A stretch of DNA of 64,000 bases from Steroidobacteraceae bacterium (lineage in GTDB: Bacteria > Pseudomonadota > Gammaproteobacteria > Steroidobacterales > Steroidobacteraceae): the NCBI GenBank assembly GCA_019634915.1, contig JAHCAN010000006.1, positions 1 through 64,000 of the forward strand. The letters run 5' to 3'. Below are positions 37,205 through 60,030 of the stretch, one piece after another. A program made the translations under genes and the position numbers. The notes under the pieces were generated by a model. That model had not been told where the DNA came from. It was given only the letters and a program-made list of their open reading frames with translations, and ran no database searches. Position 1 is the stretch's first letter; every line of letters starts with the position of its first letter.

Positions 37205-37270
37205 GGTTCTCCCCCTGCTTCTTGTTGACCGCCCCAATTATGGCGCGGCGTGACGCCCGCGTCCCGCATA

Positions 37271-40101: not shown

Positions 40102-41076
40102 ATGAAACTGCATCAGCTGCGCTATCTGGTCGCGGTCGTCGAGAACGGCCTGAACATCACCGCCGCCGCGCAGCGCCTGCATACTTCGCAGCCCGGCGTC
40201 AGCAAGCAGCTGAAGCTGCTCGAGGACGAACTCGGCTTCCAGATCTTCATGCGCGAGGGCCGCGCGCTGACCCGGGTGACGCCGACCGGCCAGCAGGTCG
40301 TCGAGCGCGCGCAGCGCATCCTCGGCGAGATCAAGTCGATCAAGCGGCTGTCGGAGGACCTGCGCAACGTGTCGGGTGGCACGCTGTCGATCGGCACGAC
40401 CCATACACAGGCGCGCTACGTGCTGCCCGGGGTGATCCGCGAGTTCCGGCTGCGCTATCCGGGCGTGCAGCTGCACCTGCACCAGGGCACGTCCGAGCAG
40501 ATCGCCGAGATGATGGCGCGCGACCAGATCGATTTCGCGATCGCGACCGGTTCGCACGAGCTGTTCCCGGACACCACGCTGCTGCCGCTGTACCACTGGC
40601 ATCGCACGGTGGCGGTGCCGCAAGGCCATCCGCTGACGCACGAGAGGAAGCTCACGCTCAAGGCGCTCGCCCGCTATCCGATCGTCACCTACTCATTCAG
40701 CTTCACCGGCCCGTCGTCGCTGAACGAGATCTTCGCGGCCGGCGGCCTCGAGCCCGACGTCGCGCTGACCGCGCGTGATGCCGACGTGATCAAGACCTAT
40801 GTGCGCCTCGGTCTCGGCGTCGGCATCGTCGCCTCGGTCGCGATCGAGGCCGGCGCCGACGCCGATCTGGTCGCGCTCGATGCGTCGCACATCTTTCCCC
40901 GGCACACGACCTGGGTCGGCTTCCGCCGCGGCACGCTGCTGCGCAGGTACATGTACGAGTTCCTGCAGGCGCTCGGCGGCCACCTCGACCGCCGCAGCAT
41001 CGACCGTGCCCGGGAACTGCCGACGCCGGCCGACGTCGAACGCCAGTTCGCCGGGGTCGAGCTGCCGGTGCGCTGA
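40102..41076 (+). CDS. cysB: LysR-type regulator CysB
   Basis: A 324-residue LTTR. The DNA-binding part ([56 protein letters not shown]) and effector domain with [25 protein letters not shown] and [12 protein letters not shown] are those of CysB/Cbl, which senses O-acetylserine or N-acetylserine and activates sulfate assimilation. A -10-like TAGAAT lies at 40087-40092, nine bases before the ATG. If cysK here uses O-succinylserine, the inducer may differ from the enterobacterial one. Confidence 0.93.
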
Positions 41077-41149
41077 GCGGCGGCGGCCAGCCGGCCGACC
41101 TCCCTGGCGAACCTGCAGGCCCGCCCTTCCACCGGGCGCCGCCCGGCCT

Positions 41150-41169
41150 TATAGTAAGCCTCCCTTATT
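41150..41169 (+). promoter_or_regulatory. Promoter with candidate MarR operator
   Basis: TATAGT (41150-41155) is a good -10 element. Overlapping it, AGTAAG at 41153-41158 and CTTATT at 41164-41169 form a near-perfect inverted repeat (5 of 6) with a 5-base centre. It lies 17 bases before the marR start. MarR-family repressors usually bind such palindromes at their own promoter. Confidence 0.45.
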
Positions 41170-41185
41170 ATCGCCCAGGCTGATC

Positions 41186-41620
41186 ATGCCCCGGCCCGAA
41201 GAAACCCTCGGCTTCCTGCTCGGTGACGCGGTGCGGCTGATGCGTGCCGACTTCAACCGGCGCGTCGGCCAGCACGGCATCACGCTCGCCCAGGCGCGCA
41301 CGCTGCGCTACCTCGCGCTGCGACCCGGACTGCGGCAGGTGGAGCTCGCGGCGATGCTCGAGATCGCACCGATGACGCTCGTGCGCCTGCTCGACCAGCT
41401 GGCGCGCGCCGGCCACATCGAGCGCCGGCGCGATCCGGAGGACCGCCGGGCCTTCCGGCTGTACGCGACGCCGGCGGCCAGGCCGATGCTCGCCGTGATC
41501 GCGCGAACCGTCGGCGAGGTGCGTGGCGTCGCGCTGCGCGGGCTGAGCGGCCCCGAGCGCCGCACGCTCGTGCGCGCGCTGCAGGTGATCAAGCACAATC
41601 TCGCGGCGGCGGCCCCGTGA
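41186..41620 (+). CDS. MarR-family transcriptional regulator
   Basis: A 144-residue winged-helix protein. ITLAQARTLRYLALRPGLRQVELAAMLEIAPMTLVRLLDQLARAGHIERRRDPEDRRAFRLYAT carries the recognition helix and the DxRx6 wing of MarR proteins. The C-terminal helices for dimerisation follow. It overlaps the EmrA-like gene (GTGA) and is therefore likely the repressor of this efflux operon, responding to a substrate of the pump. Confidence 0.92.
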   Translation: MPRPEETLGFLLGDAVRLMRADFNRRVGQHGITLAQARTLRYLALRPGLRQVELAAMLEIAPMTLVRLLDQLARAGHIERRRDPEDRRAFRLYATPAARPMLAVIARTVGEVRGVALRGLSGPERRTLVRALQVIKHNLAAAAP

Positions 41621-42615
41621 GGCGCTGGCTGCGACCGCTGCTGCTCGGCGGCGTGCCGCTCGCGATCGTCGCGGTCGCGGCGGTGCTGTGGCTGGCCGGC
41701 GGCCGCTACGTCGACACCAACGATGCGTACGTCAAGGCCGACAAGGCGCCGGTCAGCGTCGAGGTGGCCGGCACCGTGCGCACTGTGCTGGTCCGAGAGA
41801 ACCAGGCGGTCACCGCCGGCGAGCCGCTTCTCACGCTCGACAAGGCGCCGTTCGAGGTCGCGCTCGCGAAGGCCACCGCCCAGCTGGCGCGCGCGCGCAC
41901 CGACATCGCCGCGCTCGAGGCGAGCTACCGCGAGCAGCAGGCGCAGATCGCGCTGTCGAAGACGCGCACGGCGTTCGCCGAGAAGGAGTACCGGCGCCAG
42001 GCCGATCTCGCCGCGAAGGGCTACATCTCCGCCGTCAACCTCGACAAGGCGCAGGAGGAGGTGGACCTCGACCGCCAGCAGACCACCGCGCTCGAGCAAG
42101 ACCTCGCGCGCATTGCCGCCGCACTCGGCGGCAGCGCCGATCTGCCGGTCGAACAGCACGCCGAGTATCTCGCCGCCGCCGCGGCTCTCGCCGAGGCGAA
42201 GCTCGACCTCGAGCGCACGACCGTCTACGCGCCTTTCGACGGCGTCGTCTCGAAGCTGCCGAAGGCCGGCACCTGGCTCGCGCCCGGCACGGCCGCGCTC
42301 GCGCTGGTCGGCGGCCCGCCGCCGTGGGTCGAGGCGAACTTCACCGAGAAGGACCTGGCGCACGTGCACCCGGGCCAGCCGGTCGAACTCGAGTTCGACA
42401 TCTATCCCGGCCAGCGCTGGCGAGGCATCGTCGACAGCATCAGCCCGGCGACCGGCGCCGAGTTCTCGGTGATCCCGCCGCAGAACGCGACCGGCAACTG
42501 GATCAAGATCACGCAGCGCATCCCGGTGCGCATCGAGCTCGTGCCGGATGCCGACGCGCCGGTGCTGCGTGCGGGGCTGTCGGCCTGGGCGAGGATCGAC
42601 ACGGGCCGCCGATGA
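41617..42615 (+). CDS. EmrA/HlyD-type membrane fusion protein
   Basis: A 332-residue periplasmic adaptor with one N-terminal helix (LLLGGVPLAIVAVAAVLWLAGG). It has the lipoyl half-motif VSVEVAGTVRTVLVRENQAVTAGEPLLTLD, a coiled-coil hairpin (about 80-190), then TTVYAPFDGVVSKLPKAGTWLAPG and a beta-barrel with GQPVELEFDIYPGQRWRG. It connects the EmrB-like pump to an outer-membrane channel not encoded here. The start is a GTG overlapping marR. Confidence 0.92.
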   Translation: MRRWLRPLLLGGVPLAIVAVAAVLWLAGGRYVDTNDAYVKADKAPVSVEVAGTVRTVLVRENQAVTAGEPLLTLDKAPFEVALAKATAQLARARTDIAALEASYREQQAQIALSKTRTAFAEKEYRRQADLAAKGYISAVNLDKAQEEVDLDRQQTTALEQDLARIAAALGGSADLPVEQHAEYLAAAAALAEAKLDLERTTVYAPFDGVVSKLPKAGTWLAPGTAALALVGGPPPWVEANFTEKDLAHVHPGQPVELEFDIYPGQRWRGIVDSISPATGAEFSVIPPQNATGNWIKITQRIPVRIELVPDADAPVLRAGLSAWARIDTGRR

Positions 42616-44132
42616 CCCGTCCCGTCCACCGCCTGTGGATCACCGCGTCGATCATGGTCGCGACCGTGATGCAGGCGATCGACATGACGATCGCGAACGT
42701 CGCGCTGCCGCACATGCAGGGCGCGCTGTCCGCCTCGCTCGAGCAGATCGCCTGGGTACTCACCTCATACATCGTCGCGGCAGCGATCTTCATGCCGCTC
42801 ACGGGCTTCCTCGCCGAGCGCTTCGGCCGCAAGCGGGTCTTCACGACCGCGATCGTCGGCTTCACGATCGCCTCGATCCTGTGCGGCGCGGCGCAGTCAC
42901 TCGGCGAGATCGTCGCCGCGCGGCTGCTGCAGGGCATGTTCGGCGCGGCGCTGGTGCCGCTGTCGCAGGCGATCATGCTCGACACCTGGCCGCGCGAGCG
43001 CCATGCATCGGCGATGGCCTGGTGGGGCGTCGGCGTGATGGTCGGGCCGATCCTCGGGCCGACGGCAGGCGGCTTCATCACCGAGTACTACAGCTGGCGC
43101 TGGGCGTTCTACATCAACGTGCCGATCGGCATCATCGCCTGGCTCGGCGTCACCGCCTTCCTGCCCGAGACCACGCCGCAGCGCGACCGCCGCTTCGATC
43201 TGTTCGGCTTCGGTCTGCTCGGCATCGGCATCGGTGCACTGCAGCTGTGCCTCGACCGCGGCGAGACGCTCGACTGGTTTGCATCGCCGGAGATCGTCAT
43301 CGAGGCACTGCTCGCCGGCATCTGTCTCTACATGTTCATCGTGCACATGCTGACGCACCGCGCGCCGTTCCTCGAGCCGAGGCTGTTCCGCGACCGCAAT
43401 TTCGCTGCCGGCACGGCGTTCGCGTTCGGCATCGGCATGATCCTGCTCACGACGATCACGCTGCTGCCGCCGTTCCTGCAGACGCTGCTCGGCTATCCGG
43501 TCAGCGACGTCGGCGTGCTGCTCGCCTCGCGCGGCGTCGGCACGATGCTCGCGATGCTGACCGTCGGGCGGATCGGCAACCGCATCGCGCCGCTGCGGCT
43601 GATCTTCCCGGGCATGCTGCTCACCTGCGCCTCGCTCTGGTGGATGGGCCTGTTCAGCCTCGACACGACACCGATGATGGTCATCGGTTCGGGTTTCGTG
43701 CAGGGGCTCGGCATCGGCTTCATCTTCGTGCCGCTCACCACGCTCAGCTTCTCGACGCTGGATCCGCGCCTGCGCAACGAGGGCGCGGCGCTCTTCACGC
43801 TGACGCGCAACATCGGCAGCAGCGTCGGCGTATCGATCGTCGCGAGCATGCTCGCGCGCAACACGCAGGCGAATCACGCCGCGTTCGCGCAATACGCCTC
43901 GCCATTCAACCCTGCGACGCAGCTGCCGGGCTATCCGGCCGAGTGGAGCCTGCAGGCGGGCGCATCGGTGGCCGCGCTCGAGCACGAGATCACGCGCCAA
44001 GCCACGCTGCTCGCCTACCTGCAGGATTTCCGGCTGATGCTCTGGCTATCGGTGCTGAGCCTGCCGCTGCTGCTGGTGTTCCGCGCGCGCAGCGCACGCG
44101 CGCGCGAGGACTCACCGCTGCTGGTCGAGTGA
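42612..44132 (+). CDS. DHA2-family MFS efflux transporter, EmrB type
   Basis: A 506-residue 14-helix transporter. Motifs: LDxT-like AIDMTIANVALPHM in helix 1, GFLAERFGRKRVF (motif A), RLLQGMFGAALVPLSQAI (motif B) and GPILGPTAGGFITEYYSWRWAFYINVPIG (motif C and D2). It is the pump of the MarR-EmrA-EmrB operon. The ATG overlaps the emrA stop. Its 3' end overlaps the convergent DUF3187 gene by 21 bases, so the two transcripts can interfere. Confidence 0.93.
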   Translation: MTRPVHRLWITASIMVATVMQAIDMTIANVALPHMQGALSASLEQIAWVLTSYIVAAAIFMPLTGFLAERFGRKRVFTTAIVGFTIASILCGAAQSLGEIVAARLLQGMFGAALVPLSQAIMLDTWPRERHASAMAWWGVGVMVGPILGPTAGGFITEYYSWRWAFYINVPIGIIAWLGVTAFLPETTPQRDRRFDLFGFGLLGIGIGALQLCLDRGETLDWFASPEIVIEALLAGICLYMFIVHMLTHRAPFLEPRLFRDRNFAAGTAFAFGIGMILLTTITLLPPFLQTLLGYPVSDVGVLLASRGVGTMLAMLTVGRIGNRIAPLRLIFPGMLLTCASLWWMGLFSLDTTPMMVIGSGFVQGLGIGFIFVPLTTLSFSTLDPRLRNEGAALFTLTRNIGSSVGVSIVASMLARNTQANHAAFAQYASPFNPATQLPGYPAEWSLQAGASVAALEHEITRQATLLAYLQDFRLMLWLSVLSLPLLLVFRARSARAREDSPLLVE

Positions 44133-48130: not shown

Positions 48131-49642
48131 ATGCGTGTGTCGAAGCGGCGCTTCGTTCAGGCCCTCGGCGCGGTTGCCGCGACGGCAACGCTTGCATCCG
48201 GAGGCGCGCGCGCGCGCGGGATGCGTCGGCGCTGCGATCTGCTGATCATCGGCGCCGGGACCGCCGGCCTGCCCGCGGCGATCTTCGCGGCGCAGCGCGG
48301 CGCGAGGGTGGTGGTGGTCGACGCCGCGGCGCAGATCGGCGGCACGCTGCTGCTGTCGAGCGGGCAGATGAGCGCCGCCGGCACGCGGCTGCAGCGCGAG
48401 AAGGGCATCGCCGATTCGCCGCAGGAGCACTTCGACGACCTGATGCGCATCAGCCGCGGCACGATCGATCCGGTGATCGCACGGCTGGCCGTCGATCATG
48501 CGGCCCCGACCTTCGACTGGCTGATGGACCAGGGCTACCAGGTGCTGCCGGACTACCCCGTCGACGGGGTTGCGCACGAGCCGTACAGCAAACCGCGCTA
48601 TTACTGGAGTGAGAGGCGCGGCCTCGCGGTGCTCGACGCCATGCGTCCCGCCTTTTCCAGGGCGGTGGCCCGCGGACGGATCGAGCTGCACCTCGAGCAT
48701 CGTGCGGTGGCGCTGCGGCTCGATGCTTCGGGCGCAGCCAGCGGCGTTGTGGTCGAGGACTCCGGCGGGAAACGCAGCGAGCTGCAGGCGCAAAACGTGC
48801 TGATCGCGTCCGGCGGCTATGCGTCGAACGCCGCGCTGTTCGAGAAGCTGAGCGGCGTGCCGAAATTCCTCGATCACTCGTATCCGCTGGCACAGGGCGA
48901 CGGCCTCGCGCTGGCCGAATCCGCCGGCGGCTATGTCCGTGGAGCGGAGAAATATCTCACGAACTTCGGCGTGATCCTCGCCTCCGACGACGTGCCGACC
49001 TCACAGCTCGCCCGTGCGAATTTCTATCCGCAGCGCCGCCAGCCCTGGGAGATCTATGTCAACGCCGAAGCGCAGCGCTTCGTCAGGGAGGACGTGCCGA
49101 GCGTCGATGCGCGCGAACAGGCGCTGCGCTTCCAGCCGGTGATGCGGCACTGGGTCGTCTTCGACCAGTCGGTCGTCGAACAGGCGCCGCCGCTGATCGA
49201 AGACTGGACCACGCAGGACATGCTCGACGCCTTCGAAAGCAGGCTGCCTTGCTTCTACCGCGCCGGTTCGATCGAGGCGCTCGCGCAGGCCGCGGGGCTT
49301 CCCGAACGCGCCCTTGCGGCAACGCTCGAGGCCTACAACTACGGCGTGCACACGGGCAATGATTTTCTCGGGCGCAGGCATCTGCCGTGCAAGCTCGTGA
49401 AGCCCCCGTTCTACGCCATCCGGCACCAGGGCACGTCCATCACCAGCACCGCGGGCGTTGCCGTCAACGAACGCCTGCAGGTCGTGCGGCGCGATGGCTC
49501 CGCGGTGCCCAATCTCTACGCGGCGGGCGAGATCCTCGGCTCGGGCGCGACGCAGGGCCAGGCGTTCTGCGGCGGAATGATGGTGACCCCGGCCATCACT
49601 TTCGGGCGGCTGCTCGGCCAGCAACTCATCCGCTTCAGCTAG
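48131..49642 (+). CDS. Tat-exported FAD-dependent oxidoreductase (fumarate reductase/KstD-like)
   Basis: A 503-residue flavoprotein of the FAD_binding_2 family. The start MRVSKRRFVQALGAVAATATLASGG is a twin-arginine-type signal. The Rossmann motif DLLIIGAGTAGLPAAIFAAQRG is at 37-58, and the C-terminal cap return is PNLYAAGEILGSGATQGQAFCGGMMVTPAITFGR. Relatives include flavocytochrome c fumarate reductases, urocanate reductase and 3-ketosteroid dehydrogenases. No haem motif is present, so electrons must go to a separate partner. Substrate unassigned. It ends 15 bases from the convergent acyl-CoA dehydrogenase gene. Confidence 0.82.
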   Translation: MRVSKRRFVQALGAVAATATLASGGARARGMRRRCDLLIIGAGTAGLPAAIFAAQRGARVVVVDAAAQIGGTLLLSSGQMSAAGTRLQREKGIADSPQEHFDDLMRISRGTIDPVIARLAVDHAAPTFDWLMDQGYQVLPDYPVDGVAHEPYSKPRYYWSERRGLAVLDAMRPAFSRAVARGRIELHLEHRAVALRLDASGAASGVVVEDSGGKRSELQAQNVLIASGGYASNAALFEKLSGVPKFLDHSYPLAQGDGLALAESAGGYVRGAEKYLTNFGVILASDDVPTSQLARANFYPQRRQPWEIYVNAEAQRFVREDVPSVDAREQALRFQPVMRHWVVFDQSVVEQAPPLIEDWTTQDMLDAFESRLPCFYRAGSIEALAQAAGLPERALAATLEAYNYGVHTGNDFLGRRHLPCKLVKPPFYAIRHQGTSITSTAGVAVNERLQVVRRDGSAVPNLYAAGEILGSGATQGQAFCGGMMVTPAITFGRLLGQQLIRFS

Positions 49643-49657
49643 CGGGACAGTACCAGC

Positions 49658-51520
49658 TCAGAACCATTCGTCGCGCATCTCGCGGCATACGGGGTCGCGA
49701 CCGGAAACCACGCCGAGCCAGGCGGCGACCAGCGGCAGCTCGTAGGCATGGAAGTAACGCATCGCCTGCAGCTTGCCGCGCAGGAAATCGGCATCGCCCT
49801 GGCCGGACTGCAGTTGCTGCACGGCGACGCGCGCGAGGTCGAGCCAGACCCACGCGATCACCGTATGGCCGAAGGCCTGCATGTAGGCCATCGCGTTGCT
49901 GAGCGCGTCGTCCGGCTCGCCGGAGGCCCAGGCGGCACGCGTGGCGTCGCCAACGGCCTCGATGGCCGCAGCCAGCGCCTGCGCATGCGGCTGCAACTCG
50001 GGAAACCGCGCGGCAGCCGCGAGGCTCGATTGCATGCGCTCCGTCAGCAACGCAAGGCCGGCGCCACCGTCCATCACGACCTTGCGGCCCAGCAGGTCGA
50101 GCGCCTGGATGCCGTGCGTGCCCTCGTGGATCATGTTCAGCCGGTTGTCGCGCCAGTACTGCTCGACCGGGAAATCGCGCGTGTAGCCATAGCCGCCGTG
50201 AACCTGGATCGCCAGCGAGTTGGCCTCCAGGCACCACTGGCTGGGCCAGCTCTTGGCGATCGGTGTCAGCACTTCGAGCAGCGTGACCGCCTCGCGCGCC
50301 GCCTGCGGTGCCCCCGTGTGCTGCTCGTCGACGAGGCGCGCGCAGTACAGGGCCAGCGCGAGCCCGCCCTCCACATAGGCCTTCTGCGCGAGCAGCATGC
50401 GCTTGACGTCGGCATGCTCGACGATGCGCACCGGCGGCTGCGACGCGTCCTTGCCACCGGGCCCGACCGGCCGGCCTTGCGCACGCTCGCGCGCGTACTT
50501 CAGGCTCGCCTCGTAACCCGCGTAGCCGATCATCGCCGCGCCGAGGCCGATCGCGATGCGCGCCTCGTTCATCATGTGGAACATGCAGCGCAGTCCTTCG
50601 CCCGGCCGGCCGACCCGGTAGCCGATGGCGCCGGCACCGCGACCATCGAGGCCGCCTCCTGCATCCGCACGCACCGGGAACCTGCCGTCGCCGAAGTTGA
50701 GCAACGTGTTCGGAATGCCGCGATAGCCGAGCTTGTGGTTCAGGCCCGCGAGCGCGACATCGTTGCGCTCGCCGGTCAGGCGTGCCTCGGTGTCCACCAG
50801 TTTCTTCGGCACGATGAAGAGCGATATGCCCTTCGTACCGGGAACCAGCCGGCCGTCCGGTCCCGGGATCTTGGCCAGCACCAGATGCACGATGTTCTCG
50901 GTCAGCTCGTGATCGCCATTGCTGATCCACATCTTCTGGCCGCGAAGCCGGTAGCGCGGCCCGAGCGGATCGGCGTCGTGCCCCTCGCCATCCGGCTCGG
51001 CGCGCGTGGTGATGTCGCTCAGCGACGAGCCGGCCTGCGGCTCCGACAGGCACATCGTGCCGGACCAGCGGCCGGCGAATTCCTGTTTCGCGAACACGGC
51101 CTTCTGCATGGGCGTGCCGTGGACCCGCAGCAGATTCGCATTGCCGGCCGTGAGCATGCCCGCACCGCCGAGACCGATGCCGGCCTTGGAGAAGAAGGCC
51201 TGCGCCGCCATCTCCACCGTGCAGGGCAGCTGCATGCCGCCCATCTCATGGTCCTGGGCCGCGGCCAGCATGCCGGAGTCGACGTAGGCCCGCGCTGCTT
51301 CGACCGCGCAGGCCGGCAGCACGACCTTGCCGCCTTCGATCCGCGGCTCCTCGGTGTCGACCACGCGATTGAACGGCGCGAACTTCTCGTCCGCGATGCG
51401 CTCGCAGGCGTCGAGCACCGAGCCGAAGGTCTCGAGGGAATGGTCCGAGAAGCGCGGTCGCGCGGGCAGCTCGCCGATGTCGAGCCAGTGCTGCAGCAGG
51501 AAATCGAGTGTTCGACGCAT
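49658..51520 (-). CDS. Acyl-CoA dehydrogenase, large (about 600-residue) type
   Basis: A 620-residue flavoenzyme with the ACAD N, middle (GTMCLSEPQAGSSLSDI, KMWISNGDHEL) and C-terminal domains plus the extra C-terminal helical domain of the DmdC/AidB-like long forms. The catalytic base is Glu466 in NMIHEGTHGIQALDLLGRK. Long forms act on various acyl-CoAs, including 3-methylmercaptopropionyl-CoA. It lies 31 bases after the MFS-cytochrome c gene and is most likely the last gene of the molybdoenzyme operon. Confidence 0.9.
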   Translation of the reverse strand: MRRTLDFLLQHWLDIGELPARPRFSDHSLETFGSVLDACERIADEKFAPFNRVVDTEEPRIEGGKVVLPACAVEAARAYVDSGMLAAAQDHEMGGMQLPCTVEMAAQAFFSKAGIGLGGAGMLTAGNANLLRVHGTPMQKAVFAKQEFAGRWSGTMCLSEPQAGSSLSDITTRAEPDGEGHDADPLGPRYRLRGQKMWISNGDHELTENIVHLVLAKIPGPDGRLVPGTKGISLFIVPKKLVDTEARLTGERNDVALAGLNHKLGYRGIPNTLLNFGDGRFPVRADAGGGLDGRGAGAIGYRVGRPGEGLRCMFHMMNEARIAIGLGAAMIGYAGYEASLKYARERAQGRPVGPGGKDASQPPVRIVEHADVKRMLLAQKAYVEGGLALALYCARLVDEQHTGAPQAAREAVTLLEVLTPIAKSWPSQWCLEANSLAIQVHGGYGYTRDFPVEQYWRDNRLNMIHEGTHGIQALDLLGRKVVMDGGAGLALLTERMQSSLAAAARFPELQPHAQALAAAIEAVGDATRAAWASGEPDDALSNAMAYMQAFGHTVIAWVWLDLARVAVQQLQSGQGDADFLRGKLQAMRYFHAYELPLVAAWLGVVSGRDPVCREMRDEWF

Positions 51521-51551
51521 GGTGTCCAGTCAGCCTTCGGATCGAACCATT

Positions 51552-53402
51552 CTAGCGTCGGATCCGACGCAGATGCTGCACCACCAGCTCGATGCGGTCG
51601 TCGGGAATGACGCCGGCCATCGGTGGCATCGGCATGCCGGTCGTGTTTCGCGGATCATCGATCGAGCGCCCTTTGCGAATGAAGTCCGCGAGGGCGGAAT
51701 CGGGCGTTTCGGCGATGAAGCGGCTGGTCGTCAGATCGATTCCGAACCCCTGCGGCGGTGGCAGGCCGCGGCCGTCCTGGCCGTGGCAGGCGGCACAGAG
51801 ACCCGCGAAGATTCCGGCACCACTGTCACCCTGCGTTCCCGCTGCCGCTTGCAGTTCGATGCGCTGCCGCGAAGCCATGCCGAACGGCGCGACCACGGAT
51901 TGCGCCACCGCAGGCGGCCCGCTGACGGCGGCTCCGGTTCCGACGACGTTGGATCGCCCGAGCAAGGCGGGGATGGCGAGCCCTGCGAACGCAATAGCGG
52001 CGGCCGCCGCGAGTAAGTGATCGCGCAGCCGCAGACTCGAGCCGCGAATCGAGTACATGACGGCGAACAGCAACATCGCCGCTGCCACCAGTGCCCCGAC
52101 GTGCAGGGCCAGCGTCAGCAGATCCGCGGACCAGATCCCGCCACGCTGGAAGATCTGCTCATAGCGCAGTGCCTCGGCTTGCGGCATGACCGCGGCGGCG
52201 CGGCCACTCCAGACGTACTCCAGTCGATCCTGCATCAGCGTGATCAGGCCTGCCATGATCGCGACGCCGAGCGCATGGCCGCCCAGACGCACGGTGCCGA
52301 CGAGGCCGTCGGCCATCGCCAGCCGATGCGGCGGGACGCCTTTCATCAGCAGGCTCCTGTTGGGCGCGAGGAACAGACCGGACCCGACTCCGATCAGCGC
52401 CACCGGCAGCATGAACTGCCAGAGCGGCGCGCGCGGATGGACCAGAAGCAGCGCCAGATTGCCAAGGCCGACAGCGATGGCGCCGGCGATACCGAGCCGT
52501 TCCGGTCCAAGCCGGTCCGACCACTTGCGCGCTTGCGGATTGACGAGCGCCGCGATCAGCGCGATCGACCCGAGCATCAGGCCCAGATTCCGCGCGCTCG
52601 TCTCCGCGCCGCCGAGCATCACGATCGGCAGCATGAAAAAGCAGACGGCAAGGCTCGCAAACACCGCGATGGAGGCGAGCGATGCCCTGGCAAACGCCGC
52701 ACGCCGCTGGCCCGGTTCCAGGTCTTCCGGATTGTCGAGCTCGCGTCGGTCCGGGCCAGGCGAACGACCGGTTGGCTCCCGGCGCACGACCCAGAGCGCA
52801 AGCGCGATCGCGAGGATCACGAGCGGCAGGCGCGCGAGGAAGATCGACCGCCAGCCGTAGACGTCGAGGAGCCAGCCGCCCACCGGCGGGCCGACGATCA
52901 GGCCGATGGCACCGCCCACCGCCAGGATCCCGAGCGCGCGAGCGCGCCGCTCGGGCGGATACGCCGCGGCGGCGAGGACGATGGCCGGCGGCACGAACAT
53001 CGCCATGCCGAGACCCTGCAGCGCGCGCAGCGCGATCAACGTGCCGACGTCGGGCGCCATGCCGCAAAGCACCGTCATGACGCCGTACAGCGCCACACCG
53101 ATCCGGAAGCTGCGGGCACTGCCGATGGCGGCGGCGACGCGTGTCATCGACCACATCGGGGCGGCCGCGGCGATCAGGTAAGCGAGCGCGACCCACACGA
53201 CGACGGTGAGGCTCGAGGCGAAGTCGTCGACGAGTTCCCGGAAGGCGAGATTGAGCATGCCCGAATCGAGCGTGCCCATGAGTACTGCGAGCAGCAGCGC
53301 CGTCATCCACATGCGCCGGCCGCCGCGCACCGCAGGCGGCGCCATCGGCGCCGAGGCTTCGCCGACCGCCAGACGATGCGATGGCCCGGCGGGCTCAGCC
53401 AT
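51552..53402 (-). CDS. MFS transporter fused to a C-terminal cytochrome c domain
   Basis: A 616-residue fusion. Residues about 28-465 are a DHA2-like MFS transporter with 12 hydrophobic helices, including LMGTLDSGMLNLAF (helix 1), RALQGLGMAMFVPPAIVLA and GLIVGPPVGGWLLDVYGWRSIF. A 13th helix (LRDHLLAAAAAIAFAGLAIPALL) then leads to a class I cytochrome c domain with GLCAACHGQDGRG (Cys536, Cys539, His540) and Met ligands in GMPMPPM (590-595). The odd helix count puts the haem domain in the periplasm, where the molybdoenzyme works. It overlaps the Fe-S subunit gene by 8 bases and occupies the usual place of a gamma subunit. Confidence 0.88.
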   Translation of the reverse strand: MAEPAGPSHRLAVGEASAPMAPPAVRGGRRMWMTALLLAVLMGTLDSGMLNLAFRELVDDFASSLTVVVWVALAYLIAAAAPMWSMTRVAAAIGSARSFRIGVALYGVMTVLCGMAPDVGTLIALRALQGLGMAMFVPPAIVLAAAAYPPERRARALGILAVGGAIGLIVGPPVGGWLLDVYGWRSIFLARLPLVILAIALALWVVRREPTGRSPGPDRRELDNPEDLEPGQRRAAFARASLASIAVFASLAVCFFMLPIVMLGGAETSARNLGLMLGSIALIAALVNPQARKWSDRLGPERLGIAGAIAVGLGNLALLLVHPRAPLWQFMLPVALIGVGSGLFLAPNRSLLMKGVPPHRLAMADGLVGTVRLGGHALGVAIMAGLITLMQDRLEYVWSGRAAAVMPQAEALRYEQIFQRGGIWSADLLTLALHVGALVAAAMLLFAVMYSIRGSSLRLRDHLLAAAAAIAFAGLAIPALLGRSNVVGTGAAVSGPPAVAQSVVAPFGMASRQRIELQAAAGTQGDSGAGIFAGLCAACHGQDGRGLPPPQGFGIDLTTSRFIAETPDSALADFIRKGRSIDDPRNTTGMPMPPMAGVIPDDRIELVVQHLRRIRR

Positions 53403-54390
53403 GGCGCGGCTCGGGGATGTTGAACAGCGTCTTCCAGTCGCGCGCGACCAGCAGGTCCATCAGCTCCGAGGGCTCGCCACGTTGCCGGCGCTCCATTTCC
53501 GCGCGGATCGTCGCGAGCGCAGCGTCGACGCCCGGGCCGAACAGTGATCGCAGGTAGGCCGTCGGGATACGGGGGTCATCGATCACGCGGCCGTCCGGTC
53601 CGAAGCCCGGCGGCAGCACGGGCGGCACGTAGTAGACGTTCGGGCCGGTCCCATACTCCGGATGCAGCGGCAGCGCGACTTTGTAGTCGTTGACCAGCCG
53701 ATGGATGGGCCCCGCGGAATCGTCCAGCATGCCGACGAAGCGCAATCGTCCGGGGCATTGCCGGGCGCAAGCCGGCGGCACGCCGGACTCGACACGCGGG
53801 AAGCAGAAAATGCACTTCTGCGAGCGGCCTGCCGTGGCATTGAAATAGATCTTCTTGTAGGGACAGGCCTTGACGCACTCGCGCTTGCCCTGACACTTGT
53901 CCTGGTCGATCAGCACGATGCCGTCTTCCTCGCGCTTGTAGATCGCGCCGACTGGGCAGGCATGCATGCAGGCCGGGTGCGTGCAGTGATTGCACAGCCG
54001 CGGCAGGTAGAAGTGGAAGTTGTTGGGGTAAGTGCCCGAGCTCGAGTCCTCGTCCCAGTTCACGCCCCATTCCGGTTGTTTCTCGTACACGCGCAGCCGA
54101 TCGGCCCGGCCGGACCAGGCTTCGTCGTGATTCGGCTCGCCGTCGAAGCCATATGCGGCTTGCGGCGGAATCACGCCCGGTTTGAGCTTGCCGCCACCCT
54201 GGCCGCCGGCCCAGCCACCGCCCGAATGCTCCCAGTCGCGGGGGTAGCCCTGGCCCGGGCGTGTCTCGACATTGTTCCAGAACATCTGCTCCTGGCCGGC
54301 TTCGTCGGTCCAGAGCGATTTGCAGGCCACCGTGCACGACTGGCAGCCGATGCATTTGTTCAGGTCGATGACCATCGCGATCTGCGGCAT
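53395..54390 (-). CDS. Fe-S (beta) subunit of a type II DMSO reductase family enzyme
   Basis: A 331-residue four-cluster ferredoxin related to NarH, EbdB, DdhB and SerB. The cysteine groups are C13-C16-C19-C23, C133-C136-C141-C145, C166-x5-C172-C176 and C193-C196-C208-C212. In the third group the second cysteine position is Lys169 (CQGKREC); NarH has Trp here, which marks a 3Fe-4S cluster. MFWNNVETRPGQGYP and CPYKKIYFN are typical. It has no signal peptide and should be carried out with the Tat-exported alpha subunit. The ATG at 54390 lies two bases after the chaperone stop. Confidence 0.93.
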   Translation of the reverse strand: MPQIAMVIDLNKCIGCQSCTVACKSLWTDEAGQEQMFWNNVETRPGQGYPRDWEHSGGGWAGGQGGGKLKPGVIPPQAAYGFDGEPNHDEAWSGRADRLRVYEKQPEWGVNWDEDSSSGTYPNNFHFYLPRLCNHCTHPACMHACPVGAIYKREEDGIVLIDQDKCQGKRECVKACPYKKIYFNATAGRSQKCIFCFPRVESGVPPACARQCPGRLRFVGMLDDSAGPIHRLVNDYKVALPLHPEYGTGPNVYYVPPVLPPGFGPDGRVIDDPRIPTAYLRSLFGPGVDAALATIRAEMERRQRGEPSELMDLLVARDWKTLFNIPEPRHG

Positions 54391-54392
54391 GT

Positions 54393-55085
54393 TCAGTATC
54401 CGTCCAGGGTCGTCGCCAGCCAGAGCCGATCGCTCTCGAGATAGCGGTGCAGGCCGTCCCACAGCAGCTGCCACCACGAGCCGGGGACGCGATCACCGAC
54501 CGACGTGGCGGCCGCCGGCAGCCAGGCCAGCAGGTGCCGCGAGAGGAAGTCGCGGCTGGCCAGCAGATGCTGCAGGTCGTCCCGCCTGCCGGCCTCGTGT
54601 CTGGCAGCCAGCAGGTGCAGGAATTCGAGCTCGACCGACAGATGATCCGGGCACCACTGTTCGTCGGCGTTCAGGCGATAGCCGAAAAAGTCGTAGTAGC
54701 GCACGATCTCTTCGAGCGCCCGCCGCGCGTCGTCGCGCACGAGGCTTTCCCGTATCGCCACCGGCGGACCGGGCTGCCCCACCTCGAACAGCGATGCATA
54801 CTGCGCCGCCAGCGCCGCATCGTCGTCGCACAGATCGACCGCGGCCGCGGCGAGCGCGGACGCATCGAACCCGAACGGCAGGACGCGGCCGAGCTCCGCG
54901 AGCAACTCCGGCAGGTCGGCGGGCGGCAGCGCGACGATGCTGCCGTCCGGCCTGAACGGCGAGCGCGTCAGCTCGGAGAACAGCGCGTAAGCCGCACCGC
55001 GTGCGCGCAGCGCGGCATCGCCGGGCGGCGCGTCGACGGTCCGCGCCACGGACGGCTTGGACCGGGCTGTGCCGTGACTGCGCAT
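54393..55085 (-). CDS. TorD/DdhD-type molybdoenzyme chaperone
   Basis: A 230-residue all-helical protein. YALFSELTRSPF near the start, QYASLFEVGQPGPPVAIRESLVRDD in the middle and LSVELEFLHLLAARHEAG are the segments shared by TorD/NarJ-type chaperones. They bind the Tat signal of the alpha subunit and hold it for cofactor loading. It lies 9 bases after the alpha gene and 2 before the beta gene, so the order is alpha-delta-beta. Confidence 0.9.
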   Translation of the reverse strand: MRSHGTARSKPSVARTVDAPPGDAALRARGAAYALFSELTRSPFRPDGSIVALPPADLPELLAELGRVLPFGFDASALAAAAVDLCDDDAALAAQYASLFEVGQPGPPVAIRESLVRDDARRALEEIVRYYDFFGYRLNADEQWCPDHLSVELEFLHLLAARHEAGRRDDLQHLLASRDFLSRHLLAWLPAAATSVGDRVPGSWWQLLWDGLHRYLESDRLWLATTLDGY

Positions 55086-55094
55086 GCCGCCGCC

Positions 55095-57884
55095 TCAGGC
55101 AAACCTCTCGGATGCCGCCGTGTACTTCTCGAAATTCACGGTGAAGTCCTTGTAGGTCTGATTCGGCGCGAAGGACAGCGGGCGATGGCCGAGGTGGCCG
55201 TAGCCGCCCGCCATCGACGTCGGCTTGATCAGCCCGGCCGTGCAGATCACCGACGAAAAGTTCTGCCGGCCGCGGAACATCATCGGGTCCCAGCCGTGAT
55301 ACATGAACAGCATGCCCGGCGGCATGCCGTTCGACAGATGCGCCTGCGCGATGAATTGCCCGGCGGGGTTGTGCACGCGCACGAGATCGCCGTCGATGAC
55401 GCCACGCGCAGTTGCGTCCGCGGGATTGATGTAGATGTCGGGCTCGCCGCGCTGCAGCTTCAGCAGCACCGGATCGTCGCGCCACATCGAGTGAATGCCG
55501 TGGCGGGCATGACCCATCATCATCTGCAATGGATAGCCATCGATCCTGAGCGGCTCCCTGTGTCCCGGCAGCGCTTCGTCGAATTTCAGGAACCACTCGT
55601 GGTCGATGTAGAACTGCTGCCGGCCGGTCAGGGTCTTGTACGCGCGCTTGCGGACCACGCTGTTCGCGAACTCCGACTGATAGGACGCGCGCTCGTCGTC
55701 CCAAGCCGTGGTCGCCGAGTGCTCGAGCCGGACCATGCCACGGGCGGCCAGTTCGTCGAAAGTGATCTTCGGCACCCCCGGCGTCGTGTTGATCAGGAAC
55801 TGGATGACATCCCGGGCGTCCCTGATGCGGCCGTCCATCGTGTAGAGCTCGAGGTAGCGCGTGAAGTCGCGTTTCAGGCTGCGGCCGTCCACGTCGTCGT
55901 GAATGGCGCCGATGCCCCGCTCGGCGGCGCGCCGGCTGATGGCCTCCGTCAGGCGGCGGAAGATCGTCCAGTCGTCGGCCGATTCGCCGAGCGGCGGCAC
56001 GGCCTCGACCAGGCACTGCAGGTACGGCACCCGCGACTGCATCATGATGTCGTTGCGCTCGTAGTGGTGCGCGACCGGCAGCACGTAGTCGGCCTGATGG
56101 GCGGTCAGGCCCAAGTCCGGCACGATCGCCACGATCGTCTCGAGCTTGTCGAAGGCCTCCTTGCGCCAGGCGTTGCCCGAGGCACGCCAGTTGGCGCCGT
56201 TCTCGCCGGCGAAGATCCCCATCTTCCAGCCCTTGCCGGGATAGGTCGGGAACCACTTCCTGCGCAGGCTCTCCTGGTAGTACTCGTCGTATTCGCGCGC
56301 GAGCTCGCTGCCGTAGATCCTCTCGTTGAGCTCGCGCATCCGGCCGGTTTCATAGTCGAAGGTCGCGCCGGACACCATGCGGATCGCCGGCCCGACGCCT
56401 GCGGTCATGAACTGGCCCATGCCGCCGGACTTCGACGTGTTGCCGATCTGCAGGCCTCCGCCTTCGACGCCGAGATTCCCGGTCAGCGACAGCATCAGCA
56501 TCATCGAGCGCTGCAGCAGATCGCCGTGCTGCCATTTGCACACCGCGTAACCGGCATAGATCATCGCCGGCCTGGCCGCGGCGAAGCGTCGTGCCACGTC
56601 CACGATGACTTCGGCGTTGACGCCGGTGATCCGCGCCGCTACCTCCGGCGAATGCTGCGCGGCGCGCGTCTTCAGCAGCTCGAATACGGTCGTCACCTCG
56701 ACGCTGTCGCCGGTCCTGGTGCGGACTTTCCAGCGCCCTTCGAGTGCCGGGCGGATGTCGCCGAGCTTCAGGCTGCCACGGGGCGGCCGCCTGCGCCCGG
56801 CCGCGGTCGGCGGCATGTCCGTGGCAGGCGCCTTGACCAGACTGTCGGTCGCCTCGTCCCACAGATAGAAAACGCTGTCGCGCTTCGCGAGCGCGGCCGG
56901 AATGCTCAGATCGCTTTCCCGCAGGAAGCGGCCGTCGTCCGCGCGGACGAGGAACGGCAGATCGGTCTGCTCGCGGACATAGGGCGCGTCGTAGAGGCGC
57001 TCGCTCAGCAGCACATGGATCATCGCCATCGCGAGCGCGATGTCGGAACCCGGCTTCGGGTTGATCCACAGGCTCGAATGCATCGACGTGGGCGTGAACT
57101 CGGGGGAGACCGCGATCACGTCGGTGCCGTTGTAGCGCGCCTCCCAGAAGAAGTGCGCGTCCGGGATGCGGGTCACCGCGGGATTCGCGGCCCACACCAG
57201 CACGCAGCGCGACTTGAACACCGAGGCCATCGTGTCGCCCGGGTTGGCCACGCCCGTGGTCATGTAGGCGCCCGACGGGAGATCGCCAACACCCGAGTAG
57301 AACTCCGGGACCGTGAAGCCGCAGATGTTCGCGAAACGGCCCAGTGCCGCCATCGAGGCGCGTTTGACCGCCAGCTGTGTCCCCGACCCCAGCGAGATCG
57401 ATTGCGGGCCGTATTGCACCGAACAGTCGATGATCCTGTCGGCGATCTCGCGTGCAGCCTGCTCCCAGCTGATGCGCTGCCACTTGCCTTCGCCGCGCAC
57501 GCCGGCCCGCTTCATCGGATAGAGCACCCGTTGGCGCCCGTACATGTAGGCCGAATGCCGCAGTCCCTTGTTGCAGCCGCGCGGGCCGTAGTCGGGCGCA
57601 TCACCGATCGCCTCGTACTCGCCCTGCTGCTCTTCGCGCCAGACGATGCCGTCCTTCACGTAGACGTCGAAGGCGCAATTGCCGGCGCAATTCGTGCCGT
57701 GCGTGCCGCGCACGACCCGGTCCCAGGTCCACTTGTTGCGATAGACGTCCTCGAAGCGCCGATAAGCGACCGCGCCGGGCGCCAGCGCCTCGGCAGCGGA
57801 CAACGGCGAATGCCGCAACATCAGCCCGGCCGAGGCGATCGAACCCAGCAGGAACCGGCGGCGGGAGATCGTCGCTTCGTTCAC
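55095..57884 (-). CDS. Molybdopterin (alpha) subunit of a type II DMSO reductase family enzyme
   Basis: A 929-residue bis-MGD enzyme. A twin-arginine signal (ISRRRFLLGSIASAGLML) directs it to the periplasm. The FS0 cluster motif is His62-x3-Cys66-x3-Cys70 and Cys104, the His-first form of the NarG/EbdA/DdhA/SerA branch. The likely molybdenum ligand is Asp201 in FYSGVGDLPSGAY. Related enzymes hydroxylate ethylbenzene, p-cymene or steroid side chains with water, or reduce selenate/chlorate. The GTG at 57884 was chosen because GGAGG is five bases upstream. An ATG 15 codons earlier has none. Confidence 0.93.
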   Translation of the reverse strand: MNEATISRRRFLLGSIASAGLMLRHSPLSAAEALAPGAVAYRRFEDVYRNKWTWDRVVRGTHGTNCAGNCAFDVYVKDGIVWREEQQGEYEAIGDAPDYGPRGCNKGLRHSAYMYGRQRVLYPMKRAGVRGEGKWQRISWEQAAREIADRIIDCSVQYGPQSISLGSGTQLAVKRASMAALGRFANICGFTVPEFYSGVGDLPSGAYMTTGVANPGDTMASVFKSRCVLVWAANPAVTRIPDAHFFWEARYNGTDVIAVSPEFTPTSMHSSLWINPKPGSDIALAMAMIHVLLSERLYDAPYVREQTDLPFLVRADDGRFLRESDLSIPAALAKRDSVFYLWDEATDSLVKAPATDMPPTAAGRRRPPRGSLKLGDIRPALEGRWKVRTRTGDSVEVTTVFELLKTRAAQHSPEVAARITGVNAEVIVDVARRFAAARPAMIYAGYAVCKWQHGDLLQRSMMLMLSLTGNLGVEGGGLQIGNTSKSGGMGQFMTAGVGPAIRMVSGATFDYETGRMRELNERIYGSELAREYDEYYQESLRRKWFPTYPGKGWKMGIFAGENGANWRASGNAWRKEAFDKLETIVAIVPDLGLTAHQADYVLPVAHHYERNDIMMQSRVPYLQCLVEAVPPLGESADDWTIFRRLTEAISRRAAERGIGAIHDDVDGRSLKRDFTRYLELYTMDGRIRDARDVIQFLINTTPGVPKITFDELAARGMVRLEHSATTAWDDERASYQSEFANSVVRKRAYKTLTGRQQFYIDHEWFLKFDEALPGHREPLRIDGYPLQMMMGHARHGIHSMWRDDPVLLKLQRGEPDIYINPADATARGVIDGDLVRVHNPAGQFIAQAHLSNGMPPGMLFMYHGWDPMMFRGRQNFSSVICTAGLIKPTSMAGGYGHLGHRPLSFAPNQTYKDFTVNFEKYTAASERFA

Positions 57885-57959
57885 GTGTTCCTCCGAACGG
57901 CCCGGCCGATTCTTGAGGAAGATGAACAATTACTCCAATTAAAGACGCCTAGAGAAGAA

Positions 57960-58937
57960 TCACTTTTTCTTATTCTTCGGAGCGAGTGAACGAGCCGTGA
58001 CCGGGACATCCGGTTGCCGCGCATCCACCTCGACCCAGTCGAGGATCGCGGCGCGCAGTTCGTCGATGAAGCACTGGTGGAACGGGCGAACCACCATGCG
58101 TGCACGCCGGGAGATGCCGAAGTGACGCTCCTGCCCGATCTCCGGCACGGCGAAATACTTGACCTGACCCGATACTCCGCCAGAGGTACGGAACAACTTC
58201 GGGGAGAGGATTCCGATCGCGTGCCCGCCCTTGATCAGCGCGGCGGCGAGAGTCTCCGAATTCGTCCGCAGAATGCGGGGAGTCGAGTAGATGTCGGCCG
58301 AGGCGAAGATGCGGGCCAGATACTCGGGCCAGTCCGGCCTCGTGGAGACCGCGACCCACCAGTGATCCGCGAGGTCCGCGAGACCGAGCGTGTCGCGCCC
58401 GTACAGCTCGTGCCCGGCGCCGACGACGATCTGGACGTGGTCCCGAAAGAGCGGCTCCCATTTCATCTCCGCCATGTCGCGAGGCAGGAAGAGATCGGAC
58501 AGAAAGGCGAAGTCGATCTCGCCCCCGGCGAGCAGGGTCGCCAGGCTCGCCGACCAGTCCTTGATGATCTTGATGTTGTAGTCAGGCCAGGCGCGATTGA
58601 ACGCCGTGATGGCCTCGATCAGGATCCGGTCATCCAGACTCTGGACGACACCGACCCTGATCTCGGCGCCCGCCTGGCGGGCCTGGGCCATCAGCTCGGC
58701 CTTGGCCGCCTCGAACTGGCCCGTGATCACTTTCGCGTGGTCATACAGCTTCCGGCCGTGCTCGGTCAGCACGGACCCCGTCTTGCTGCGAACGAACAGT
58801 TGCAGGCCGAGCTCTTCCTCCAGTCTGGAGATCGACTGCGTCAGGGCGGACTGGGTCACGCCGACGCTCTCGGCCGCCTTGTAGAAATGCGTGCCGCCCG
58901 CGAGCGCCATGAAATGCCTCAGTTGACGTAAGTCCAA
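57960..58937 (-). CDS. LysR-family transcriptional regulator
   Basis: A 325-residue LTTR. The N-terminal HTH reads LRHFMALAGGTHFYKAAESVGVTQSALTQSISRLEEELGLQLFVRSKTG. The effector domain starts IRVGVVQSLDDRILIEAI. The C-terminus is unusually basic (APKNKKK). It lies 75 bases upstream of the alpha subunit gene on the same strand and is divergent from the SUMF1-domain gene. It is a natural candidate regulator of the molybdoenzyme operon. Confidence 0.92.
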   Translation of the reverse strand: MDLRQLRHFMALAGGTHFYKAAESVGVTQSALTQSISRLEEELGLQLFVRSKTGSVLTEHGRKLYDHAKVITGQFEAAKAELMAQARQAGAEIRVGVVQSLDDRILIEAITAFNRAWPDYNIKIIKDWSASLATLLAGGEIDFAFLSDLFLPRDMAEMKWEPLFRDHVQIVVGAGHELYGRDTLGLADLADHWWVAVSTRPDWPEYLARIFASADIYSTPRILRTNSETLAAALIKGGHAIGILSPKLFRTSGGVSGQVKYFAVPEIGQERHFGISRRARMVVRPFHQCFIDELRAAILDWVEVDARQPDVPVTARSLAPKNKKK

Positions 58938-59040
58938 AGCTGTTCCCTCCGACGCTGCTAGCCTCCTTCGCGGACATGCGAAACCGGCTTTGGAATCAAC
59001 GACCTGCCGTGCCGGAGCCGGTCGCGTCGGGAATACCTGA

Positions 59041-60030
59041 ATGACTGAATCTTATCAAACGCTCGATACTATTAGCTGCTCTAATTTCAGGCCATACGGT
59101 GGGGGTCTTCGCCTCCTGCGACGCGGACTCGCGGCGCTGTTGATGGCGATACCGCTCGCACTCGTCGGCAGCTGTCAGGCGACGACGCAAGCCCCCGGCA
59201 CCGAGTTCACCGATTGCGAGAGCTGCCCGGTGATGGTCGTGGTCGCGCCCGGCCGCTTCATGATGGGATCCGACGAAGGCGAAGAAGGGCGCCCGAACGG
59301 CCCGGTGCACGAGGTCACGATCGGGTACCCGCTCGCCGTCGGCAAATTCGAAGTCACCGTCGCGCAGTTCCGCCGGTTCGTCGAGGAATCGGGACACCAG
59401 CCTGGTGAGCCCTGCATCGTGTTCACCGACAAGTGGGAACCCGTGCCGGGCACGGGTTGGCACAATCCCGGCTTCGGACGCGCGCCGCTCGACGATGAGC
59501 CGGTGGGCTGCATCAGCTGGCTCGATGCGAAGGCCTATGCGGCCTGGCTGTCCCGCAGGACCGGCAAGCCCTACCGTCTTCCGTCGGAAGCGGAATGGGA
59601 ATACTTCGCGCGCGCGGGCACGACGACCCGCTACTTCTGGGGCGACAGCGACGAGGGGATATGCCAGCGCATCAACCTCTTCGACCGATCCGGCCGCAAG
59701 GCGTCCGCGCTTTCATACATACCCGCCGAATGCGACGATGGCCATGCGTTCGCAGCGCCAGTGGGCAGCTTCCCGCCGAACCCGTTCGGCCTCCACGACA
59801 CGACCGGCAATGTGTGGGAGTGGACCGAGGATTGCTACGCGGTTCCCTATCCGGAACGCCCCGCGGATGGCAGCAGCTACCAGGTGGATGGGCCTTGCGA
59901 ACTGCGATCCATTCGTGGCGGCAGCTGGATCACGAGCCCTCCGCGCCAACGCCCGGCGTGGCGGGGCCGCGATCCCGAAGCGCTGGTCTTCAGTCCTTTC
60001 GGCTTGCGCGTCGTGCGCGAGCTGCGATGA
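59041..60030 (+). CDS. SUMF1/FGE-sulfatase-domain protein, probable lipoprotein, no catalytic Cys pair
   Basis: A 329-residue protein. The N-terminus has a basic and hydrophobic stretch (LRLLRRGLAALLMAIPLALVGSC) with a possible lipobox Cys. The domain is clearly formylglycine-generating-enzyme-like: PGRFMMGSDEGEEGRPNGPVHEVTIG, PVGCISWLDAKAYAAWLSRRTGKPYRLPSEAEWEYFARAG, NVWEWTEDC and RSIRGGSW. After RGGSW, where true FGE has its copper-binding cysteines, the sequence is ITSPPRQRPAWRGRDPEAL without Cys. An FGE reaction is therefore unlikely, and it may be a binding or structural relative. The start could lie further in. Confidence 0.82.
   Translation: MTESYQTLDTISCSNFRPYGGGLRLLRRGLAALLMAIPLALVGSCQATTQAPGTEFTDCESCPVMVVVAPGRFMMGSDEGEEGRPNGPVHEVTIGYPLAVGKFEVTVAQFRRFVEESGHQPGEPCIVFTDKWEPVPGTGWHNPGFGRAPLDDEPVGCISWLDAKAYAAWLSRRTGKPYRLPSEAEWEYFARAGTTTRYFWGDSDEGICQRINLFDRSGRKASALSYIPAECDDGHAFAAPVGSFPPNPFGLHDTTGNVWEWTEDCYAVPYPERPADGSSYQVDGPCELRSIRGGSWITSPPRQRPAWRGRDPEALVFSPFGLRVVRELR

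Follow-up and report, generated by a model that had tools for sequence, protein, structure and literature searches.

The fusion gene and its operon

The 64,000-nucleotide stretch analysed here (the window), from contig JAHCAN010000006.1 of a Steroidobacteraceae bacterium (a gammaproteobacterial source; genome G000), carries on its minus strand a gene in which a transporter of the major facilitator superfamily (MFS) is joined to a c-type cytochrome, within an operon for a molybdenum (Mo) enzyme of the type II dimethyl sulfoxide (DMSO) reductase family. The gene (51552..53402) is a single open frame that runs from an ATG at 53402 to 51552, encodes 616 amino acids (P0001) and has no internal stops. 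Pfam places an MFS_1 domain at residues 36-379 (52266..53297; 165.3 bits against a cut-off of 33.4) and a cytochrome c domain at residues 525-611 (51570..51830; Cytochrome_CBB3, 29.9 bits against a cut-off of 27), while a simple hydropathy script finds 12 helices in the MFS part and a 13th transmembrane helix at residues 463-481 (51960..52016). The cytochrome domain contains the haem c motif CAACH at residues 536-540 (51783..51797), in which both Cys residues and the His are invariant in six aligned fusion sequences. Downstream lie Met590, Met592 and Met595, of which only Met592 (51627..51629), the candidate sixth haem ligand, is invariant in the six. A preliminary description of this DNA, made without database searches, had proposed the same continuous frame of transporter, 13th helix and cytochrome, with CAACH and a Met cluster near residue 590; Pfam, hydropathy and the motif bear this out on the minus strand, and the haem features are read directly in the translation.

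The loop of 13 residues before helix 13 holds three basic residues and one acidic residue. Under the positive-inside rule, which is used for membrane topology, such a basic loop predicts that helix 13 takes the chain to the periplasm. The haem domain would thus lie on the periplasmic side, in the same compartment as the alpha subunit exported by twin-arginine translocation (Tat), and this predicted topology supports the placement made in the preliminary description.

The gene order on the minus strand is alpha subunit, TorD-like chaperone, iron-sulfur (Fe-S) beta subunit and fusion. The alpha gene (55095..57929) encodes a Mo-bis-molybdopterin guanine dinucleotide (Mo-bis-MGD) subunit with the Tat-type motif SRRRFL, and its start is unsure (TTG at 57929 or a later codon). 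The chaperone gene occupies 54393..55085 and the beta gene 53395..54390, the start of the latter being set at the M of MPQIAMVIDLNKC within a longer frame from 54477. The stop codon of beta extends to 53395 and the fusion begins at 53402, so that the two genes overlap by 8 nucleotides, exactly as first described.

Profile and structure-sequence matches relate these partners to the type II enzymes. Among solved structures, the alpha subunit is closest to 5e7o/4ydd (E-value 6e-176), a record that bears only the label of a type II enzyme and is taken here to be the perchlorate reductase PcrAB with PcrA as its alpha subunit, and then to ethylbenzene dehydrogenase (1.7e-120); the order is reversed for the beta subunit, which matches ethylbenzene dehydrogenase beta first and 4ydd_B second. 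The beta subunit exceeds the cut-off of TIGR03478 (507.6 against 480.7). TIGR03479 is the best model for the alpha subunit at 857.7, below its cut-off of 984.75, and TIGR03482 the best for the chaperone at 95.6 bits, below its cut-off of 152.3; the chaperone does exceed the cut-off of PF02613 (53.8 against 22.2). As stated in the available part of PMC8840923, type II enzymes use Asp as the Mo ligand in the alpha subunit. The corresponding GD of YSGVGDLPSG in the window alpha is matched in the alignment by YDWYGDHPTG (4ydd) and VDIGDTYMG (ethylbenzene dehydrogenase); a search for the GD pattern found it in all nine alphas of the clade and in ClrA, but not in two haloarchaeal alphas. The FS0 ligands H77, C81, C85 and C119 are invariant in five aligned alphas and in register with 4ydd. 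At the positions that we take to be Phe164, Tyr165 and Trp461 of PcrA, presumably residues of its active site, the window alpha has Phe, Tyr and Thr, respectively.

Homologs and conservation of the fusion

Five homologs of the fusion, 32-38% identical to the window protein, are encoded in four genomes that belong to a single order of Alphaproteobacteria: L010 and L036 in G597, L043 in G799, L059 in G886 and L060 in G887. Four are complete and align end to end, and L060 is cut by its contig end just short of the C-terminus, with the haem motif and the Met included. L010, from a metagenome-assembled genome (MAG) titled Alphaproteobacteria, contains an entire fusion of 669 amino acids directly behind a beta gene. 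All six fusions retain CxxCH, exactly one copy each, together with one Met, and the linker is open in all five homologs. PF13442 and/or PF00034 score above cut-off in the window fusion, L010, L036 and L059 (4/6). The MFS–cytochrome c fusion is therefore a conserved arrangement, more than a chance event.

Among the observations that the preliminary description had named as counting against it were an assembly frameshift joining separate genes and loss of the haem motif in close relatives. Neither is found: the homologs share one architecture, and CxxCH and the Met are present in 5/5 relatives. The chief point in favor of an assembly error comes from L009, a contig of a Rubrivivax MAG that is 98.3% identical to the window over 1970 nucleotides and covers the end of the beta gene and the fusion through residue 453, where the contig stops with the linker uncovered, and that itself joins narH to beta. 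Against this stand the five homologs of the same two-domain architecture, with open linkers, in four other genomes, which make the error highly improbable and exclude it for practical purposes. Within L009 (8394-8630), a narH-like frame that follows a narG-like gene switches at about 8394 to the beta gene of this operon, which then leads into the fusion; this junction is probably a chimeric assembly at a conserved ferredoxin region. The window genome also carries a narG-like gene of its own (G000:C2:16555-20160, locus L053).

A homolog scan of the genome_contigs collection returned 11 loci, of which L009 and L010 concern the whole gene and L011-L019 match MFS parts only. Among 72,556 plasmid records, no relative covers 80% of the fusion, the five matches being Streptomyces MFS genes that cover 17-21% of it, and the viral_contigs collection yielded four pattern matches and no relative. 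No description of such a fusion was found in the literature searched, whose coverage leaves out most subscription journals and bioRxiv preprints.

Both halves are under purifying selection in the pair L043 and L059. Nonsynonymous (dN) and synonymous (dS) divergence amount to 0.0633 and 0.742 in the MFS part, 0.0772 and 1.549 in the cytochrome part, and 0.221 and 1.106 in the linker. The comparison of the window with L009 over residues 1-453 points in the same direction with few changes (6 nonsynonymous, 9 synonymous).

Linkage to the molybdoenzyme and distribution

A gene for the alpha subunit, chaperone or beta subunit lies directly upstream of the fusion in all five homologous loci, which extends to relatives the operon context first described for the window. 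The order is beta–fusion in L010 (the contig starting within beta), alpha–fusion in L036 (the contig starting within alpha), chaperone–beta–fusion in L043 and L059, and alpha–chaperone–fusion in L060. Counting the window, the start of the fusion overlaps the upstream gene in 5/6 loci, with a gap of 15 nucleotides in L060.

Enzyme and fusion also occur together across genomes, with E-value thresholds set at 1e-70 or 1e-60 (fusion) and 1e-150 or 1e-60 (alpha subunit). In the family sample the fusion is present in one of 200 genomes, the window's own. In the phylum sample a single genome of 398 has the fusion and that same genome alone has the alpha clade, and in the class of G597 two genomes of 289 have the fusion and the same two have the alpha clade; in these phylum and class scans scoring was limited to the few best candidates of each genome, so that weaker matches could be missed. 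In the order of G597, represented by five genomes, four have both genes and G688 has neither. Overall, where genomes were searched for both genes, alpha clade and fusion were found in the same five. The rarity of the fusion in the family (1/200) and phylum (1/398) suggests that it was transferred horizontally into the lineage of the window.

The transporter half

A profile built from four fusions has its best MFS matches, at positions 15-444 of 665, in an antiseptic resistance protein (5e-45), whose record we take to be QacA, and in EmrB, the closest solved sequences to the MFS_1 domain; the best solved match of the cytochrome part of the same profile is CcoP of cbb3 oxidase (3mk7_C, 1.3e-11). 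Asp46, Arg126 and Gly171-Pro172 are invariant in 6/6 fusions and in register with both QacA and EmrB, and presumably have roles in proton-coupled antiport. Against TIGR00711, the EmrB-type model, the window fusion scores 154.5 bits, below the cut-off of 230.2. The fusions have a degenerate version of the loop that bears MFS motif A, reading TRVAAAIGSARSF in the window versus SAFADKWGRKKAL in the QacA record. This degeneracy was considered as a sign of lost transport and is not strong evidence for it, since EmrB is degenerate at the same place (GWLAKRVGEVKLF).

Transporters of the DHA2 group have 14 helices. After transmembrane helix 6 (TM6), at residues 206-232 (52707-52787, minus strand), the window copy lacks a stretch that holds two hydrophobic segments in three aligned relatives, and losing such a helix pair would not change the side on which the C-terminus emerges. 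Helix counts given by the script for the relatives are uneven (14, 13 and 15, figures that include the tail helix and a false call within a cytochrome); the alignment is therefore the basis for their topology. Elsewhere in the window, at 40799-44132 on the plus strand, frames resembling a MarR regulator, an EmrA-type adaptor and an EmrB-type transporter were noted by eye, the last matching fusion residues 12-199 at 32%.

The alpha clade

In the alpha tree, the window alpha groups with four alphaproteobacterial alphas (95/95). The tree is arbitrarily rooted, has a long ClrA branch and omits the partial G799 alpha (L044), NarG, PcrA and EbdA. Three of the five alphas in this group have a known downstream side, and all three lead to a fusion; the other two are cut off by contig ends. 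The four remaining alphas of the clade fall outside the group (L065, L037, L038 and L066). L037 shows an alpha–beta pair up to its contig end, and the alphas of L038 and L066 run to, or nearly to, the ends of their contigs. Paralogs are present in two genomes, G597 with four alpha genes and two fusions and G887 with three alphas and one fusion. At the position pair 164/165 of PcrA, the window group has FY, FF, FF, FY and FF, and the other four alphas have AY, SF, SF and LF.

Genomic surroundings

The genes around the Mo enzymes of the clade have a catabolic appearance. UbiD, CN_hydrolase, DUF1838 and luciferase-like genes are neighbors of clade members; since UbiD and CN_hydrolase stand beside alphas for which no fusion is known, they tell more about the clade as a whole than about the loci that carry a fusion. 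Behind the L059 fusion lie genes for a Rieske protein and for a protein resembling 2-oxoglutarate (2OG)-Fe(II) oxygenases, frames resembling TonB receptors were seen by eye near the L036 fusion, and the neighbors in the window include an acyl-coenzyme A (CoA) dehydrogenase and a CoA ligase. The DUF1838 proteins at L037:6565-7437 and L010:5212-6243, both near Mo enzyme genes, have Tat-like starts by eye.

The acyl-CoA dehydrogenase-like gene (49658..51520), identified by family search, lies 31 nucleotides downstream of the fusion on the same strand and is possibly co-transcribed with it. Upstream of the alpha gene, a LysR-family gene (57960..58937, minus strand; family search) is a probable regulator of the operon. 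A scan of 49500-59200 returned no promoters and two terminators, compared with shuffled means of 1.0 and 3.4. Farther away, at 36506-40029 on the minus strand, cysD- and cysNC-like genes (sulfate adenylyltransferase and fused adenosine phosphosulfate (APS) kinase) and an aquaporin-like gene were recognized by eye.

Search for a gamma subunit and comparison with known systems

The haem-b gamma subunit represented by EB_dh (PF09459) was found in none of the three genomes searched (G000, G597 and G799; G886 and G887 were not searched), all of them incomplete assemblies (78.6% for G000), while the same search gave matches in 2 of 14 controls. Its absence near the window operon had been remarked upon at the outset, along with the caveat that a gamma gene might lie elsewhere; such a gene was sought and not found within the limits of these three assemblies. 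Two haloarchaeal records do show an ethylbenzene dehydrogenase-related gene beside beta. Haem b held within the MFS helices, in the manner of NarI, was considered and set aside, the sole invariant His in the six sequences being that of CxxCH.

The preliminary description had further contrasted the fusion with known type II enzymes as carriers of a haem-b gamma subunit. This holds for ethylbenzene dehydrogenase, steroid C-25 dehydrogenase and ClrABDC, and presumably for further members of the same subgroup. The contrast is nonetheless incomplete in that it leaves out perchlorate reductase, whose partner carries haem c: the enzyme is described as having a soluble haem-c gamma subunit (PMC8840923) and a tetrahaem PcrC that feeds PcrB (PMC5845722). 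PcrABC of Azospira suillum thus resembles the present system in supplying the best solved match for alpha and the second-best for beta and in having a c-type cytochrome as electron partner. It differs in that its cytochrome is tetrahaem and its gamma subunit soluble, whereas here a single haem c is fused to a 12-helix transporter, and in that Trp461 of PcrA is replaced by Thr in the window alpha.

ClrABDC, encoded on a plasmid of Ideonella dechloratans, similarly combines alpha, beta, chaperone and a third subunit in one operon, with mobB slightly downstream, and the L010 fusion is likewise followed by mobA- and mobB-like genes (by eye). However, the chaperone gene of the Ideonella operon is followed by a separate gamma gene and then by a separate c-type cytochrome gene, with no transporter in the annotated stretch, and its alpha subunit is 34% identical to that of the window. 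Ethylbenzene dehydrogenase and steroid C-25 dehydrogenase share with the present enzyme type II alpha and beta subunits and, probably, a dedicated chaperone; unlike it, they have a haem-b gamma subunit and no fused transporter. Among transporters, QacA and EmrB of the DHA2 group share with the fusion the Asp of TM1, the Arg of motif B and the Gly-Pro of motif C, all in register, but the fusion adds a helix and a cytochrome c domain, its window copy has 12 helices rather than 14, and its motif A is degenerate, as is that of EmrB. CcoP of cbb3 oxidase is also a tethered c-type cytochrome; the membrane part of the fusion, in contrast, is a transporter and not an oxidase subunit.

Interpretation and alternatives

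The reading that best fits these data, to which a probability of roughly 0.53 is assigned as a whole, is that the fusion stands in for the gamma subunit as the third, membrane-anchored component of a periplasmic type II Mo enzyme, with its haem c exchanging electrons with beta and its MFS part moving the substrate or product. Beyond the gene arrangement itself, we infer four parts of this reading: that electrons flow from beta to haem c, that the enzyme works as an oxidizing one, that its substrate is organic and that the MFS part actively transports. The Mo-bis-MGD alpha subunit, exported with beta by the Tat system, would probably oxidize a hydrophobic organic compound with water. The Fe-S clusters of beta would carry the electrons to the haem c tethered by helix 13, from which they would enter the respiratory chain, and the DHA2-like MFS part would bring the substrate to the enzyme or take the product away, so that conversion and transport could take place in one complex. 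An organic substrate is suggested by the alpha paralogs in G597 and G887, by the gate residues that differ between alpha groups and by the catabolic-looking neighbors.

Several observations weigh against this reading. Two loci, L036 (8328-13108) and L060 (4133-9594), have no beta gene between the alpha or chaperone gene and the fusion, and L065 is an alpha–beta pair without an adjoining fusion. The missing partners in L036 and L060 suggest that beta is shared from elsewhere in the genome. Sharing of partners is proposed for Sterolibacterium (PMC6016249), in which several alpha paralogs are thought to share fewer beta-gamma partners. When the alphas known to be followed by a fusion (three rows) are labelled on the tree, two changes are required, a figure matched by 119 of 500 shuffles, so that the formal test is weak. 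Both gate residues are aromatic throughout the fusion group (FF or FY, 5/5), as they are in perchlorate reductase, and G000, G799 and G886, which make up three of the five genomes, each show a single alpha of the clade; the case for an organic substrate is weakened accordingly. In addition, the Pfam listings for L043 (limit 1e-5) and L060 (limit 0.01, cut by the contig end) contain no cytochrome model, and in these two the cytochrome domain is recognized by the motif and the alignment. A structure prediction of the fusion from a two-sequence alignment reached a mean predicted local distance difference test (pLDDT) score of 37.0 and a predicted template modeling (pTM) score of 0.25 and was discarded. 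Every sequence, moreover, comes from a fragmented draft assembly.

Alternative explanations differ mainly in what the two halves of the protein would do. One is that the MFS part no longer transports and has been re-used as an anchor that holds haem c and the enzyme near the respiratory chain. The degenerate motif A loop of the fusions and the loss from the window copy of the two-segment stretch after TM6 fit such a change, yet EmrB too has a degenerate motif A, the three sites presumed to act in antiport are invariant in all six fusions, dN/dS in the MFS part is low, and a single helix rather than 12 would suffice as an anchor; this explanation is accordingly considered unlikely. A bolder extension, in which the haem in the transporter chain links oxidation to the vectorial movement of the same molecule by channelling or redox gating, is equally tentative, and such redox group translocation is not described for Mo enzymes in the literature searched. 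The coupling of transport and redox put forward in the preliminary description is likewise a hypothesis.

Two further explanations are considered less probable still, and to a similar degree. In one, the cytochrome would lie off the main electron path and act as a redox sensor or gate of an exporter that guards the cell from a toxic substrate or product, which would suit both the closeness of the MFS part to multidrug exporters and the two loci without beta beside the fusion. Placing the haem off the path, however, would leave the enzyme without an obvious electron partner, because the EB_dh gamma subunit was not found in the three genomes searched; moreover, whenever a genome searched for both the alpha clade and the fusion had one of them, it also had the other. 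In the other, the enzyme would be a reductase, with haem c feeding respiratory electrons to beta and alpha and the transporter removing the reduced product. The best solved alpha, 5e7o/4ydd, taken here to be PcrA, has a c-type cytochrome partner, and Phe164 and Tyr165 of PcrA align with Phe and Tyr, an aromatic pair being kept in all five alphas of the fusion group. Nevertheless, the Thr in place of Trp461, the variation of the gate pair in the sister alphas and the catabolic-looking neighbors all argue against reduction.

Implications

The third subunit decides the source or destination of the electrons of a type II Mo enzyme. If the replacement of gamma by the fusion is true, a haem-bearing transporter as third subunit would be a new form of membrane wiring for these enzymes, with uptake or export located right at the enzyme. 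In addition, the fusion is a marker for a clade of uncharacterized Mo enzymes, with several paralogs in two of the five genomes, that is open to heterologous expression, an approach already applied, with Thauera aromatica as host, to the steroid C-25 dehydrogenases (PMC6016249).

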